The notes below the pieces were generated by a model. It was not told the origin of the DNA, ran no database searches, and was given only the letters and a program-made list of their open reading frames with translations. Shown piece by piece: positions 19,470 to 27,515 of a stretch of 31,450 bases of DNA. This DNA is from a virus: positions 1 to 31,450 of IMG/VR virus record IMGVR_UViG_3300046477_000165, one strand, 5' to 3'. Positions within the stretch are counted from its first letter, which is position 1. Each line of letters opens with the position of its first letter. The translations under genes and the position numbers were made by a program.

Positions 19470-20456
19470 ATGAAATTCTCCGACATCCACACCTCCATCA
19501 CGGCTCAGTTCAAGACCACCAACCGTATCGCCCCGTTCATCCTCGGCAAGCCGGGCGGCGGCAAGACGGAACTGGCCCGCAAGGTGGGCCGCGACCTCGG
19601 CTTCGACCAGGTGATCGAGTTCAACGCGTCACTGCGCGACCCGGTCGACCTGCTGGGCACGCCGCGCAACGCCGGCGAGTTCACCGAGTGGGTGCCGCCG
19701 AAGGAACTGTACCGCCTGCGTGAAGGCCGCAACCTCCTCATCATGGAGGAACTCAGCGACGCCACGGTGCCTATGCAGAATGGAATCTGCGGATTAATTC
19801 ACGATAGAAAGCTGAACGACCTGCAGCTGTCGCCGGACACCTACATCATCGCGACGGGCAACCGCACCGAGGACAAGTCGGGCGCGAACCGCATCACCTC
19901 GAAGCTGGCCAACCGCATGCGCCGCTTCGACTTCGACGAGAACCTCGACGACTGGTGCGACTGGGCGCTCGGCGCGGGCATCGACGTCATGCTCATCCAG
20001 TTCCTGCGCTTCAAGCCGAACCTGCTCTCGGACTTCGACCCGAACCGCTTCTGCAACCCGACGCCGCGCGCATGGGAGCGCGTCAACATGATCCCGGAAG
20101 ATCTCGAGCCGGCGCTCTTCATGGACAACGCAGCCGGTGAAGTCGGCGCGGGCGCGGCAGCCGAGTACACGGCGTTCCGCAAGATCGCAAGTTCGCTGCC
20201 TTCTATCGACAGTGTGCTCATGAATCCGGCTACGGCTGAAGTGCCGACCGACGTGGCTGTCCTCTTCGCGATGGCTGGTGCGATCTCGATGCGCACGTCG
20301 AAGGATAATATCGATCGCGTTTCAGAGTATATGAATCGCATGCCAATCGACTTCAGCGTCCTCATGATGAACGACATTGTTAAGCTCCACCCCGAGGTCA
20401 AGACGACGAAAGCGTTCGTGTCGTGGGCAGTAAAGAACGCGAGCGTACTCGTCTGA
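19470..20456 (+). CDS. MoxR-type AAA+ ATPase
   Basis: A 328-aa AAA_5/MoxR-like ATPase. Walker A is GKPGGGKT (26-33); Walker B is LLIMEEL (89-95), with Met-Glu-Glu in place of the usual D-E; sensor 1 is ATGN (N131); Arg-finger candidates lie in NRMRRFDF (149-155). Such ATPases remodel or load cofactors into partner complexes and usually work with a VWA protein. Here that partner is likely the 380-aa protein at 23398, and the helical 303-aa protein at 21277 may be a third component. ATAGGAT lies before the ATG. The gap upstream (19394-19469) holds one CACATGTCAT copy and one GTTAGCA motif. Confidence 0.88.
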   Translation: MKFSDIHTSITAQFKTTNRIAPFILGKPGGGKTELARKVGRDLGFDQVIEFNASLRDPVDLLGTPRNAGEFTEWVPPKELYRLREGRNLLIMEELSDATVPMQNGICGLIHDRKLNDLQLSPDTYIIATGNRTEDKSGANRITSKLANRMRRFDFDENLDDWCDWALGAGIDVMLIQFLRFKPNLLSDFDPNRFCNPTPRAWERVNMIPEDLEPALFMDNAAGEVGAGAAAEYTAFRKIASSLPSIDSVLMNPATAEVPTDVAVLFAMAGAISMRTSKDNIDRVSEYMNRMPIDFSVLMMNDIVKLHPEVKTTKAFVSWAVKNASVLV

Positions 20457-20457
20457 T

Positions 20458-20769
20458 ATGGCGCGCGGCAAGTGGGCTACAAATTTCGGCTTCACCGGCA
20501 AGGCGATGTTCACCGTCGACACCGGGCTGCAGGCGGACGGTACGCCCACTGGCTGGTATGTCCGCACCGATGGGAAGATCGACGGTATCTGGCGGGTGTA
20601 CTACCCGCCGGACTACGCCTACTTTTCAGAGCGTCCATCTTGGGTGCTCGCCAGGTTCGCACCAGGTGGAGAGTGGTGGTGCGCCGTGGTCAACAAGACC
20701 GAGCAGCGCGTGGGCCCCTTCCCTACCAAGGCATCCGCGCTCGCAGCACGGAGGATGTTATCAGCATGA
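20458..20769 (+). CDS. Small Trp/Tyr-rich protein (103 aa), first of a tandem series
   Basis: Begins MARGKWATNFGFTGKAMFTVDTG, with many aromatic residues (WYVRTDGKIDGIWRVYYPPDYAYF, GGEWWCAVVNKTEQRVGPF) suggesting a beta-sheet, then a C-terminal helix PTKASALAARRMLSA. The start is one base after the ATPase stop. The final CGG AGG ATG codons provide the ribosome binding site for the next gene. The same strand-rich body plus 'a-ARRM' end recurs in six later genes. Function unknown. Confidence 0.65.
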   Translation: MARGKWATNFGFTGKAMFTVDTGLQADGTPTGWYVRTDGKIDGIWRVYYPPDYAYFSERPSWVLARFAPGGEWWCAVVNKTEQRVGPFPTKASALAARRMLSA

Positions 20770-21002
20770 AGATCATAACCAAGCGATTGGAGACGGACGA
20801 CAACTACGCCTCGATCCGGTACGAGAACGGCCACATCACATGGTTCGAGGAGAGCCGGATGTACCACTCTCAGCACGAGAAGACCGGAGACGGCCCAGAC
20901 ATCTACAAGGTGTATGGCGAGCCCGGCTGGCGCGTCGAGGGCGACCACGACACGAAGTACCCGACGCGGCTTACCGCTCTGATCGCAGCGAGGATGGGAT
21001 GA
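20766..21002 (+). CDS. Small tandem protein (78 aa), paralogue of the next gene
   Basis: MKIITKRLETDDNYASIRYENGHITWFEES, ending YPTRLTALIAARMG. It aligns with the downstream 81-aa protein over its start (MKII-K--E-DD-Y-SI-Y) and end (YP-R--AL-A), so the two are duplicates. Both ends overlap neighbours by four bases. A small beta-plus-helix fold is likely. No function can be assigned. Confidence 0.65.
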   Translation: MKIITKRLETDDNYASIRYENGHITWFEESRMYHSQHEKTGDGPDIYKVYGEPGWRVEGDHDTKYPTRLTALIAARMG

Positions 21003-21244
21003 AGATCATCGACAAGGAGTGGGAGAACGACGACTTCTACACTTCGATCTACTACGGGCCGAAACATCTAAGCACGTCGGCGCGCATGTGGGATGAGGGA
21101 GATGGCTGGCGCTTCTCCATGAGTGGCGTTGGTACGCATGTGTTTCGCGAACGCGGCGGTGGATGGTACTGCGACCGCGGCCCAGACGATAACCGCTATC
21201 CATGCCGCGCCGCTGCGCTAGTCGCACTGAAGCTCTCGCAGTAA
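20999..21244 (+). CDS. Small tandem protein (81 aa), paralogue of the previous gene
   Basis: MKIIDKEWENDDFYTSIYYGPKHLSTSARM continues with aromatic, Gly-rich strands (DGWRFSMSG, GGGWYCDRG) and ends YPCRAAALVALKLSQ. The start overlaps the previous stop. A 32-bp gap containing ACTAACTAACTTGAGG follows. It is the second half of a recent-looking duplication within the ATPase operon. Confidence 0.65.
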   Translation: MKIIDKEWENDDFYTSIYYGPKHLSTSARMWDEGDGWRFSMSGVGTHVFRERGGGWYCDRGPDDNRYPCRAAALVALKLSQ

Positions 21245-21276
21245 GCACCACAACACTAACTAACTTGAGGCACGCA

Positions 21277-22188
21277 ATGGACATGACTCTCCCCCCGAAC
21301 ATTGACATCAAGGCCACGCAGTTGAATGAGAAGGCGATGCTCGTCAAGCTGACGATGCGCCGCGCTCACATGTCATCGCGCGATCAGGCTGCCGAGGAGA
21401 TCGTGCAGAACCAGCTGAACGACGCGTCGCTGGTGGTCAACCGCAAGCTGTTCCGGGACAAAGCGAACCCGGTGAACCGGATTCTGACGGCCGCGAGCGA
21501 GGTGTACACAGCGCACAAGAAGATGACGCTGCCGTACATGGACGCCGGCCCGCGCATCCTGGCAAACGGGATGTACATGGAGTACACGAAGGCGATGAAG
21601 GAGCGCATCGCGCACCTCGAAGGGATGATCGAGCAGACGCTGGCCAGCTGGGACCAGCACGTGGCGGCCGACATCTCGTTTCGCAGCCGGTCATCCAGTG
21701 GCGGGAGGGCAACAGTCGAGGACTACCCCACCGCTGAGCAATTCAGGGAGCGCGTGGGATTCGACCTGCGCTTCTCCCCCCTGCCGGACGAGAGCCACTT
21801 CCTGTTCGACCTGTCGGAGGAAGACAAGGCGGGCTTCGCTTCGTCGATGAAGGAGATCGCCGCCGGCGCGCGCCGCGATTGCATCATGCGGATGTTAGCA
21901 CCTGTTGACCACTTGATTAGTAAGTTGCGCTTGCCCATTGGCGAAACTGGGAGTATCTTTCGTGACTCCGCGATCACCAACGTGGTCGAAGGGTGCGAGA
22001 TCGCCCGCAAACTCAACATCGACGACGACCCCCAGATCACGGCGGTGATCGGAGAGTTGAACCGCGCGATCGCCAAGATCAACGATGCGAAGGATGCAGT
22101 GCGCGAGTCGCAGCCCACGCGCGAGGCCGCCGCCAAGAAGCTGGCGGAACTGCAGGCGAAGCTGGCGCCGTTTATGGGGATGGCATGA
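21277..22188 (+). CDS. Helical protein, possible DUF3150-like partner of the ATPase (303 aa)
   Basis: ATG 21277 has GAGG six bases upstream and is preferred to a start inside the previous gene. The protein is mainly helical. Recognisable stretches are FRDKANPVNRILTAASEVYTAHKKMTLPYMDAGPRILANGMYMEYTKAMKERIAHLE, then YPTAEQFRERVGFDLRFSPLP, and a coiled-coil C-terminus (ELNRAIAKINDAKDAVRES). The 'Gp-l-p---y--y--am' and 'yps---fr----f---f-p-p' pattern resembles DUF3150-type proteins encoded between MoxR ATPases and VWA proteins. That match is from memory. It contains one CACATGTCAT and one GTTAGCA in its coding sequence. Confidence 0.7.
   Translation: MDMTLPPNIDIKATQLNEKAMLVKLTMRRAHMSSRDQAAEEIVQNQLNDASLVVNRKLFRDKANPVNRILTAASEVYTAHKKMTLPYMDAGPRILANGMYMEYTKAMKERIAHLEGMIEQTLASWDQHVAADISFRSRSSSGGRATVEDYPTAEQFRERVGFDLRFSPLPDESHFLFDLSEEDKAGFASSMKEIAAGARRDCIMRMLAPVDHLISKLRLPIGETGSIFRDSAITNVVEGCEIARKLNIDDDPQITAVIGELNRAIAKINDAKDAVRESQPTREAAAKKLAELQAKLAPFMGMA
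21367..21376 (+). repeat. CACATGTCAT copy 5
   Basis: Near the 5' end of the 303-aa helical gene; context CTCACATGTCATCGCG. Confidence 0.6.
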
Positions 22189-22457
22189 AACGATTGAGCA
22201 GCAAGGCACGCAGGGACCGTAGTCGGCAGAACTTCTTCGAGTACCTCACCGTGGAGGTTGTGCTGCTCCGCATGGCGGGGTGTCCGACCGAAGAGTTGAA
22301 GGCGTTCGAGAACCCCAAACACCGCGACCGTGAGGTACTCAAGTCGAAGCTGAACCGACTGAAAGCCTACGTGGTTGACGGGAAGTATGTGTATTCCAAC
22401 AGGGTCTTCAACTACGGCATGCAGCCCTCGCAGCGGACGCATCCAATCGGAGGATGA
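22185..22457 (+). CDS. Small basic protein (90 aa)
   Basis: Start overlaps the previous stop (22185-22188). MKRLSSKARRDRSRQNFFEYLTVEVVLLRMAGC leads into a basic helical body (ENPKHRDREVLKSKLNRLKAYVV) and a short C-terminal tail. Strong positive charge suggests nucleic-acid or protein binding. No family recognised. The end GGAGGATGA supplies the ribosome binding site for the next ATG. Confidence 0.6.
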   Translation: MKRLSSKARRDRSRQNFFEYLTVEVVLLRMAGCPTEELKAFENPKHRDREVLKSKLNRLKAYVVDGKYVYSNRVFNYGMQPSQRTHPIGG

Positions 22458-22458
22458 A

Positions 22459-22701
22459 ATGACAACGAAGCGTGAAGAGAACTGGATCGCGATCCAGCCG
22501 GGGTATGACTGCCACATCCTCCTGCCGGCCTCGAAGGCCACGGAGTTGCTGGCCCACATGCTCCAGCTGCAGCACAAGTACGTCGACGGCAGCTACATGT
22601 GGACGGTGGTAGGCGATCGGGAGCATACCAAAATCCAGATCGTCGAAGCCGACCTCATCACCGCCGCGCGCGTGGCTGCGAAGTTCGACGATAAGAAGTA
22701 A
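22459..22701 (+). CDS. Small unknown protein (80 aa)
   Basis: ATG 22459 has GGAGG five bases upstream. MTTKREENWIAIQPGYDCHILLPASKATELLAHMLQLQHKYVDG is followed by strands WTVVGDREHTKIQIVEAD and a helical ITAARVAAKFDDKK. This is a small alpha/beta fold with no visible catalytic site. A 31-bp gap follows before the HNH gene. Confidence 0.65.
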   Translation: MTTKREENWIAIQPGYDCHILLPASKATELLAHMLQLQHKYVDGSYMWTVVGDREHTKIQIVEADLITAARVAAKFDDKK

Positions 22702-22732
22702 TATGTAGCCCAAACGATCCGGGACTACAAGA

Positions 22733-23377
22733 ATGAAGACGTGTTCAGCATGCGGGGAAGCGAAGGATCTGGCCGAGTTCTATAAGCAGGGACCTTGCAA
22801 GGTGTGTAAGCGAGCCATGACGGCGGCTTGGCGCGAGGCTAATCCGGAGCGCGCCAAGCAAGCCACGCGCGAGTGGCAGAAGGCAAACCCTAAGCGCCGA
22901 GCGGAGTACGCGTTGAAGGCTAGGCTCGCCGATCCTGAGAAGAAGCGAGCACAGAGCCGCAGATGGTATGCAGAGAACCGTGAGCAGAAGCTCGAGCAGA
23001 ACAAAGCGTGGGCTCAAGCCAACCCCGATAAGCGTCGCGCGCATATACGTTCTGGATACTGGAGAGATCCAGAAAAGTGGCGTGCATACAGCGCCGCCAA
23101 GATCAAGGCGAACATGCCCTACTACGTTGAGGCGGCTGCGAAACGTAGAGCAGCGCAGCGTGGTGCAACACCAGTGTGGGCGGACCGCAAAGCGATCGCG
23201 GCGATCTACCGGGAAGCACGGCGCAGAAGGGAAGCAGGCGAGGATGTACACGTAGATCACATCGTGCCGCTGCAGAGCGACATTGTCTGTGGCCTCCACG
23301 TTGAATTCAACCTGCGCATCATCGGCGCGTTCGATAACCATAGCAAGAAGAACCGGCATTGGCCGGACATGCCATAA
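22733..23377 (+). CDS. HNH endonuclease with N-terminal zinc finger
   Basis: A 214-aa protein. CSAC (4-7) and CKVC (22-25) form a zinc-finger pair at the N-terminus. Residues 30-125 are a basic helical region with repeating 'W---NPEkAk' units. The C-terminus has DHIVPL (175-180), then FNLRIIGAFDNHSKKNRHW, the HNH signature with its second Asn and Lys residues. It may be a free-standing homing nuclease or act in genome processing. It separates the helical protein gene from the VWA gene and looks like an insertion into that module. Confidence 0.85.
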   Translation: MKTCSACGEAKDLAEFYKQGPCKVCKRAMTAAWREANPERAKQATREWQKANPKRRAEYALKARLADPEKKRAQSRRWYAENREQKLEQNKAWAQANPDKRRAHIRSGYWRDPEKWRAYSAAKIKANMPYYVEAAAKRRAAQRGATPVWADRKAIAAIYREARRRREAGEDVHVDHIVPLQSDIVCGLHVEFNLRIIGAFDNHSKKNRHWPDMP

Positions 23378-23397
23378 CTTACTCATCGAGAACCAAC

Positions 23398-24540
23398 ATG
23401 AAAACCGTTTCAAAGCTGGACAAAGCTAAAGCAGCCATCGTTTTGGACCACCCATTTTGGGCCTCCATCTTGTTGCGTAGGCCGATGCAGCCGCGTAAGG
23501 ATATCCCTATCCTCGCGATCGACAAGCGCGGAACCATCTACTACAACCCGGACAACATCGAGAAGTTCACGGTCCCGCAGTTGGTCTGGGGCCTCTGCCA
23601 TGAATGTGGACATTATCTCGGTCAGCACGCCAACCGGAAGCAGCACCGGGACCACAAGAAGTGGAACATCGCATGCGATGGGTGGCTAAACGACATCCTC
23701 ACGTCGGCCGGCGTCGGCCAGCCCATCGAGGGCACGGTGAACATGCCGGGCTCGAAGGACAAGACGTGCGAGGCGATCTACGACGAGCTCCCCGACCAGC
23801 CCGAAGGTGGCGAAGGTAGCGGAGAGGGCGAAGGTAGCGGGGATAGCCAAGGCGGCATGGGCGACGACGTCCTCGATGAAGGCGCACCCGTCAGCGAGAG
23901 CGAAGCCAAGCAGATGGAGGCCCAGGCCAAGATCGAAGTGGCTGAAGCGGCGCAGGCAGCGAAGATGCGTGGCAAGCTGCCCGCCGCGCTAGCTGAGTTC
24001 GTCGCCGATTTTCTCGACAGCAAGACGCCCTGGTTCGACATCCTCGAGCGGCACATGACGGCGCTCACCGCCACGCACATGTCATGGCAACGTCCGAACC
24101 GCCGCTACGCGCTGAGCGACCTGTATCTGCCGAGCATGGCCAAGGCCCCGACGATGGGCGAGTTGTGCTGCGTGGTCGACGTCTCTGGTTCGATCTCACA
24201 GACCGAGCTCGCCTACTACAACGGCCACCTCACGCGCATCGTCGAGCAGTGCAATCCCGAGAAGGTCCACGTGCTCTACGTCGACACGAAGTGCCAGAAG
24301 CACGTCGAGTTCGAGCAGGGCGAGCCGGTCGGGCTGGAGTTCTACTCCGGCGGCGGCACGCACATGCCGGCCGCGTTCGACTTCATGGCCGAGCACGGCA
24401 TCGACCCAGCGGTGACCGTGTTCCTCACGGACGGATTTACTGGTTTTGATACGGACCCCGGCATGCCGGTGGTGTGGTGCATCTCATCCAACGTGGTGGC
24501 CCCTTATGGCGAAACCGTCCACTTTGAACTCGAGCACTGA
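23398..24540 (+). CDS. VWA protein with HExxH metallopeptidase-like N-terminus (DUF2201-type)
   Basis: A 380-aa protein. HECGH (68-72) within LVWGLCHECGHYLGQH is an HExxH zinc motif, as in the DUF2201 N-terminal putative metallopeptidase. Residues 133-160 are a Gly/Glu/Ser linker. The VWA domain carries the metal-ion site D261-V-S-G-S265 (VVDVSGSIS), T321 (GGGTHMP) and D345 (LTDGF). MoxR-type ATPases commonly pair with such VWA proteins, so it probably acts with the ATPase at 19470. ATG 23398 is preferred to 23359, which would overlap the HNH gene. Whether the HExxH site is active is unknown. The domain linker and VWA core look intact. Confidence 0.85.
   Translation: MKTVSKLDKAKAAIVLDHPFWASILLRRPMQPRKDIPILAIDKRGTIYYNPDNIEKFTVPQLVWGLCHECGHYLGQHANRKQHRDHKKWNIACDGWLNDILTSAGVGQPIEGTVNMPGSKDKTCEAIYDELPDQPEGGEGSGEGEGSGDSQGGMGDDVLDEGAPVSESEAKQMEAQAKIEVAEAAQAAKMRGKLPAALAEFVADFLDSKTPWFDILERHMTALTATHMSWQRPNRRYALSDLYLPSMAKAPTMGELCCVVDVSGSISQTELAYYNGHLTRIVEQCNPEKVHVLYVDTKCQKHVEFEQGEPVGLEFYSGGGTHMPAAFDFMAEHGIDPAVTVFLTDGFTGFDTDPGMPVVWCISSNVVAPYGETVHFELEH
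24076..24085 (+). repeat. CACATGTCAT copy 6
   Basis: Inside the VWA gene, before its VWA domain; context CGCACATGTCATGGC. Confidence 0.6.
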
Positions 24541-27001: not shown

Positions 27002-27337
27002 ATGAACGTTCAAGAAGTTGCAGCAGCCAAGGCCCTGATGATCCTGAAAGCCGCCGGCGCCCGGTTCCACATCAAGATGTCCGATGGCATCGAGTATGGC
27101 GAGCCGATCGTAGAAGGCAAGCCGCGCAAGAAGGTCGGGCCGAGCATCCTGCACCACTATCAGGAGCCGATCGAGAGGATGGAGGTGGGCGATGTGGTCC
27201 AACTCGCCTACCCCGCTGATATAGACCGCGTGCGATTCAAGACGAACGCGCAGTCCTACGCCCGTAACAAATTCGGCCCCGACTCGTGCGTCGTGGGCAA
27301 GACCGACACTCATGTGGAGATTCTCCGTGTCCAATGA
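27002..27337 (+). CDS. Unknown protein (111 aa)
   Basis: MNVQEVAAAKALMILKAAGARFHIKMSDGIEYGEPIVEGKPRKKVGPSILHHYQEPIERM, then a strand-rich VVQLAYPADIDRVRFKTNAQSYARNKFGPDSCVVGKTDTHVEILRVQ. The last part reads as a small alpha/beta domain with a possible DNA-binding character. A modest AAGGAAC site lies upstream, after ACCAACCAACAAGG. Function unknown. Confidence 0.65.
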   Translation: MNVQEVAAAKALMILKAAGARFHIKMSDGIEYGEPIVEGKPRKKVGPSILHHYQEPIERMEVGDVVQLAYPADIDRVRFKTNAQSYARNKFGPDSCVVGKTDTHVEILRVQ

Positions 27338-27515
27338 AGAAACGAAACGTCTCGCGCGCGTCGAGTCGCGCCTTTGCCAACTGATGCTCCACATGGGGCT
27401 TGATCCGAATGAGAGAGTCTACGATGCGCCCTTCGAAAGCGGGTCCCCTCAACATCCCGCAGACGGTCACCCGTATGCACCGCGCCATGGCGCACCGGGA
27501 TGCCGTCGAGCCTGA
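27327..27515 (+). CDS. Small helical protein with overrunning tail (62 aa)
   Basis: GTG 27327 has GGAG about seven bases upstream; ATG 27312 is an alternative. MSNEETKRLARVESRLCQLMLHMGLDPNERVY looks real (a charged helix), but the end DGHPYAPRHGAPGCRRA lies in the next gene's frame-shifted sequence and looks less natural. Either it overlaps the next gene by 92 bases or its true end has been lost. Function unknown. Confidence 0.45.
   Translation: MSNEETKRLARVESRLCQLMLHMGLDPNERVYDAPFESGSPQHPADGHPYAPRHGAPGCRRA

Follow-up and report, generated by a model that had tools for sequence, protein, structure and literature searches.

In NorQ-NorD, as in RavA-ViaA and CbbQ-CbbO, a MoxR ATPase is paired with a partner that has a C-terminal VWA domain with a metal ion-dependent adhesion site (MIDAS) behind a flexible linker. 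The NorQD model from cryo-electron microscopy places a VWA finger inside the ring pore, with force on the linker (PMC9976466, PMC13036017). Pairs consisting of an ATPase and a metallopeptidase-VWA protein are already known in phages, as the core N4 genes 24 and 25 (PMC4193335) and in the group 2.2 jumbo phages (PMC7824862). The MoxR-vWA ternary conflict systems (VMAP) include a third protein (PMC7159879). A related locus, described here, is found in the 31,450-base virus record IMGVR_UViG_3300046477_000165 of IMG/VR, which was analysed over its whole length (the window). It encodes, on the plus strand, a MoxR/AAA_5-type AAA+ ATPase (19470..20456), a helical DUF3150-like protein (21277..22188) and a DUF2201 metallopeptidase-VWA protein (23398..24540). 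Together these three genes are called the trio.

The trio resembles the N4 gp24/gp25 and group 2.2 jumbo phage pair in having a homologous ATPase, a DUF2201-type VWA protein, linked genes and an unknown function, but it adds the DUF3150-like gene; the N4-like and jumbo phages that were searched yielded no homologue of it. It differs from NorQ-NorD, RavA-ViaA and CbbQ-CbbO in the zinc-peptidase-type N-terminal domain, the extra DUF3150 protein and the lack of a known client. Bacterial AAA_5/CbbQ_C-DUF3150-CobT sets also have DUF3150 in the middle, with a MoxR-clade ATPase and a VWA protein encoded on either side; however, their ATPase is CbbQ/NorQ-like and their VWA protein CobT-like, families other than those of the window. 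The third protein of the window is DUF3150 and not, as in the ternary conflict systems, VMAP or a beta-propeller. No Pfam effector domain was present in the genes scanned, a scan that included no systematic search for conflict-system partners and no VMAP profile by name. Neither the link of DUF3150 to MoxR-VWA systems of phages and plasmids nor its bacterial association with CobT-type partners appears to have been described. The term DUF3150 did not occur in the literature searched, which excludes subscription papers and databases, and the main text of the CRISPRi-ART paper mentions neither N4 nor gp24 nor VWA.

Linkage of the three genes was assessed in 39 viral contigs that encode the helical protein; several of these are near-duplicates, so that they correspond to about 30 independent loci. 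The ATPase gene is present in 39/39 and the VWA gene in 37/39. The two contigs that lack the latter, L014 and L036, break off 114 and 507 bases past the helical open reading frame (ORF) and are thus uninformative on VWA. The linkage is far above chance. Gene order is mostly ATPase-helical-VWA, with helical-ATPase-VWA in L037, L038, L043 and L044. Over the 39 loci, pairwise correlation of the tree distances gives r of 0.945-0.975 for the three proteins. A podophage group and a beta-proteobacterial plasmid group separate as splits in each of the trees, the podophage split having low support (0.50) for VWA. Among close relatives all three genes are under purifying selection, with a ratio of nonsynonymous to synonymous substitution rates (dN/dS) of 0.04-0.18. 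In distant podophages, the region from terminase to DNA polymerase widely shares only the trio, the DNA polymerase and one 67-aa ORF. A tblastn search for the helical protein among isolated phages returned 3 records only, all 65,014-base genomes; one of them, Synechococcus phage MinM2, has the gene order of the window with different small genes filling the gaps. The first-pass annotation had read the three genes as one phage module, which this neighbourhood comparison bears out. It had also named two outcomes that would speak against it, failure to place the proteins in their families and genes that never co-occur in other phages; neither came about.

The ATPase (328 aa) matches PHROG 1297 'ATPase' with E 1.4e-65, and the best named match of its profile in the PDB is Midasin (E 2e-26). 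It has the AAA+ motif set of Walker A (GKPGGGKT), an acidic Walker B pair (LLIMEE), a sensor-1 Asn (Asn131) and, as roles suggested by position, a candidate Arg finger (the invariant R149) and a candidate sensor 2 (PR199-200). The Walker A core, sensor-1 Asn, R149 and PR200 are conserved in 22/22 aligned ATPases, in agreement with the MoxR-type ATPase first annotated at 19470. The letters MEE of Walker B had been read correctly, but they are no notable departure. Members of the podophage clade have either E-E or D-E as the acidic pair, L037, L038 and L043-L045 have D-D, and the pair is retained in every aligned ATPase. Since D and E alternate while the pair is always kept, MEE is no sign of inactivity.

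The VWA protein (380 aa) matches both DUF2201 profiles well over their cut-offs: DUF2201_N with E 1.7e-44 (152.9 bits against 23.2) and DUF2201 with E 1.8e-20 (73.7 bits against 26.4). Its N-terminal metallopeptidase domain has HECGH at residues 68-72 and D94, followed by a Gly/Glu-rich linker (~130-160) and the C-terminal VWA domain, whose MIDAS is complete (DVSGS/T321/D345, that is DxSxS-T-D). In the alignment of 18 VWA proteins (A5), HExxH is present in 17/18, the MIDAS in 18/18 and H68/H72/D94 in 18/18. The exception is L044, in which HVTMH has lost the catalytic Glu and kept both His and the Asp. The HExxH and MIDAS sites are predicted from these residues to be active. Its profile gave only chance-level matches in the PDB, and the window protein matched no CobT family of Pfam at E<=1, so it is not placed in CobT/CobT_C. 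Thus the reading of this gene as a DUF2201-type VWA protein with a HECGH motif stands. PHROG 1314 calls the same protein (23398-24540) 'HNH endonuclease', as do many phage records for its homologues; this label looks like a mis-annotation.

The helical protein (303 aa) has a near-invariant N-terminal motif, L(N/S)(E/S)KAMLVxL, in the viral loci (alignment A4). The window protein has no direct match in Pfam or NCBIfam and does not reach the cut-off of DUF3150 (PF11348), for which its relatives L039, L043, L045 and L071 give sub-threshold scores. The link is made by intermediates. A protein of a deltaproteobacterial metagenome-assembled genome (MAG), L052, matches the phage helical profile at 3.6e-75 and is also over the DUF3150 cut-off, and the phage profile retrieves other DUF3150 members in bacterial genomes, mostly with E of 1e-9 to 1e-21. 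In profile-profile comparison, the phage family A4 matches the intermediate DUF3150 members A8 (99.4%, E 5.9e-22) and these match canonical DUF3150 A7 (E 5.1e-18); the direct match of A4 to A7 is weak (75%). Because the intermediates are recognised from both sides, the helical protein is, by profile homology, a divergent branch of DUF3150, as had been suspected when it was first called possibly DUF3150-like. Matches of its profile in the PDB were at chance level only.

The trio is also found outside phages. It is present on 13/14 plasmids inspected, the trio carriers being proteobacterial; a Sphaerotilus plasmid has the ATPase-VWA pair only. On 9/13 trio plasmids it lies just 5' of type IV secretion genes, with no more than two genes between, and these encode a VirB11-type ATPase, VirB2, VirB3 and mostly VirB4. 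The nine plasmids are related and thus do not represent nine independent events. A hypothetical gene of ~1.3-1.5 kb recurs 5' of the trio on the Burkholderiaceae plasmids L049, L060, L061, L063, L067-L070 and L072, which have virB11-type genes on the 3' side of the trio. In bacteria, the DUF2201-type trio is found at three MAG loci (L052, L102, L103); a scan of genome contigs gave one locus, and a profile search in 196 relatives of its MAG yielded a second. Canonical bacterial DUF3150 genes are flanked by an AAA_5/CbbQ_C ATPase at 14 loci and by a CobT-type VWA protein at 13, as counted with hidden Markov models (HMMs) built from three Pfam-annotated loci. With a CbbQ/NorQ-like ATPase gene on one side of these canonical genes and a CobT-type VWA gene on the other, DUF3150 seems to turn up repeatedly as the third partner in MoxR-VWA machines.

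Together these data make it reasonably probable that the trio is a three-component MoxR-type machine for the ATP-driven remodelling or processing of some client. The basis for this is gene content, intact motifs, conserved linkage, congruent trees, purifying selection and DUF3150 homology; from it we infer formation of a complex, an ATPase ring, peptidase activity, a client and a role for DUF3150. The layout of the window VWA protein, an N-terminal domain, a linker and a C-terminal MIDAS-VWA domain, matches that of NorD, and by analogy the trio may use the same ATPase-VWA coupling. The ATPase ring would engage the DUF2201 protein at its C-terminal VWA domain, whose metal site would hold the client or else the DUF3150 protein. 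ATP hydrolysis would pull or twist the bound protein, and the N-terminal zinc-peptidase domain on its flexible linker could then clip or otherwise process the presented client. The DUF3150 protein may be a scaffold or adaptor. In the window the trio lies on the strand opposite to the structural arm, within the DNA polymerase arm and upstream of the DNA polymerase. This non-structural position, together with the trio on plasmids and in bacteria, points to a protein complex inside the cell, more than to a component of the virion, as the likely client. A broader and more tentative proposal makes DUF3150 the third subunit in a general class of MoxR-VWA machines of phages, conjugative plasmids and bacteria, partnered by a metallopeptidase-VWA or CobT-like protein; their client would belong to nucleic-acid or transfer machinery inside the cell and not to the virion.

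Several points weigh against the three-component machine. The trio has no known client or phenotype. The window ATPase scores E 4.5e-4 and 20.7 bits with Pfam AAA_5, 1.3 bits below the 22-bit cut-off, which is passed by its relatives in MinM2 (23.6 bits) and Cassandra (24 bits). The tree correlation is also raised by common ancestry of the phage backbone. Finally, the pair occurs without a detected DUF3150 in G7C (N4-like), pVa5, phage G, S-TIM66, Cassandra and RHph_TM3_14A, so DUF3150 may be accessory.

The main rival is that the pair is a virion-assembly chaperone and maturation protease, which helps to build tail or head proteins that the peptidase domain processes. Iyer et al. proposed virion assembly for the MoxR and metallopeptidase-vWA pair of the group 2.2 jumbo phages (PMC7824862), p618/p892 of Acidianus two-tailed virus function in tail development (PMC4124505), and in S-TIM66 the pair genes lie near virion genes. 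The window trio, however, is opposite in strand to the structural arm, and the N4-like core genes, their function unknown, are listed separately from the virion genes (PMC4193335). Carriage of the trio by plasmids and bacteria makes a purely phage-structural role unlikely. The plasmids were checked for phage identity with a phrog_2 terminase test on three of them, which gave no match for two and a weak match for the third, W08; this is a weak test, which misses the true phages MinM2 and G7C and rings in 13/14 controls. Plasmid carriage and the location in the polymerase arm both count against virion assembly, though not decisively, as the plasmid copies may act on a different client. Overall this explanation is judged unlikely.

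Two further explanations are each rated slightly less probable still. The trio could be a metal-insertion or chelatase machine like CobS-CobT or NorQ-NorD, with a metal bound at the HExxH/D site and its loading into a client powered by the ATPase. The CbbQ/NorQ-like and CobT-type neighbours of canonical DUF3150 fit this, as do the metal insertion driven by NorQD (PMC13036017), the reported mis-annotation of phage cobT as a peptidase (PMC8651126) and L044, which loses the catalytic Glu and retains the metal-site residues H, H and D. On the other hand, that Glu is present in 17/18 proteins, the window proteins match no CobT/CobS family and have DUF2201 and PHROG 1297 as best profiles, and PHROG 249 'porphyrin biosynthesis' reaches 13 bits only. 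Alternatively, the trio could take a host complex apart, as a machine of counter-defence or host takeover. This would be of use to phages and plasmids alike and is consistent with a trio common to phages, conjugative plasmids and bacterial MAGs and, on several Burkholderiaceae plasmids, placed just before virB11-virB2-virB3-virB4 type genes. PADLOC gave no match, although it lists defence and not counter-defence proteins, and the place of the genes in the N4-like core (PMC4193335) speaks more for a general role than for a host-specific one.

Small genes interrupt the trio, and their arrangement, three in tandem in the first gap and two with an endonuclease gene in the second, is as first annotated; all are on the plus strand. 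In the first gap s78 (20766..21002) and s81 (20999..21244) are paralogous (blastp E 3e-8, HMM), and iterated HMM search joins s103 (20458..20769) to them as a distant member (E ~1e-7). s78 overlaps s103, and s81 overlaps s78, by 4 nt. This fast-turnover family, with 2 or 3 copies in each genome, is confined to the window and the five genomes nearest to it (L008-L012, the close relatives), where all copies sit in the gap from the ATPase gene to the helical gene. In the second gap, s80 (22459..22701) is present in all five close relatives (62-99% identical) and not beyond, and the accessory gene s90 (22185..22457) only in L012 among the five. No small gene between the trio genes is common to the window and the more distant podophages compared. 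The interrupting small genes are lineage-specific, which rules them out as conserved partners of the trio and leaves the suggestion that they are clients or specificity factors without support. At 15 other loci, some of them near-duplicates, a small protein with a single hydrophobic stretch and a charged tail is encoded beside the trio, between the helical and VWA genes in L013-L017, L020-L024 and L032-L034 and between the ATPase and helical genes in L018/L019; none was found in the window.

The endonuclease gene (22733..23377, plus strand) is HNH/endonuclease VII-like (PHROG 1035 endonuclease VII, E 2e-15) and is missing from all five close relatives. Homology to L008, L009 and L012 stops at 22695 and resumes at 23397, where a divergent tract (23397..23757, plus strand) begins, seen in sliding identity to L008 and L012: the first ~360 bases of the VWA gene are 64-89% identical to relatives, then mostly 89-100%. 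Judged by these comparisons, the gene is a recent insertion and no part of the module in which it had been included. Absence from sisters with a divergent flank is what homing with flank conversion would be expected to leave, and the gene is a putative, homing-like free-standing endonuclease. In Escherichia phage G7C an HNH gene also lies between the ATPase and VWA genes.

As to the wider genome, the contigs carrying L008, L010 and L012 are 62.1-62.5 kb, and the portal protein of Rhizobium phage RHph_TM3_14A is 37% identical to that of the window. The 67-aa ORF of the window (27312-27515) is common to 15/23 relatives compared and has no match in NCBIfam or Pfam.

Of the original description, the machine, the DUF3150-like partner, the DUF2201-type VWA protein and the module hold, and what falls away is the role of the small proteins, the peculiarity of MEE and the HNH gene as a component. 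Its question of why a phage carries such a machine widens, as plasmids and bacteria carry the trio too. The analysis also points out an apparently wrong database label (PHROG 1314). N4 genes 24 and 25 are core genes whose function has been unknown for a decade; a third partner in the form of DUF3150, and the occurrence of all three genes on plasmids and in bacterial genomes, argue against a purely virion-assembly role. The trio offers a first functional context for DUF3150, in a three-protein system that can be tested.

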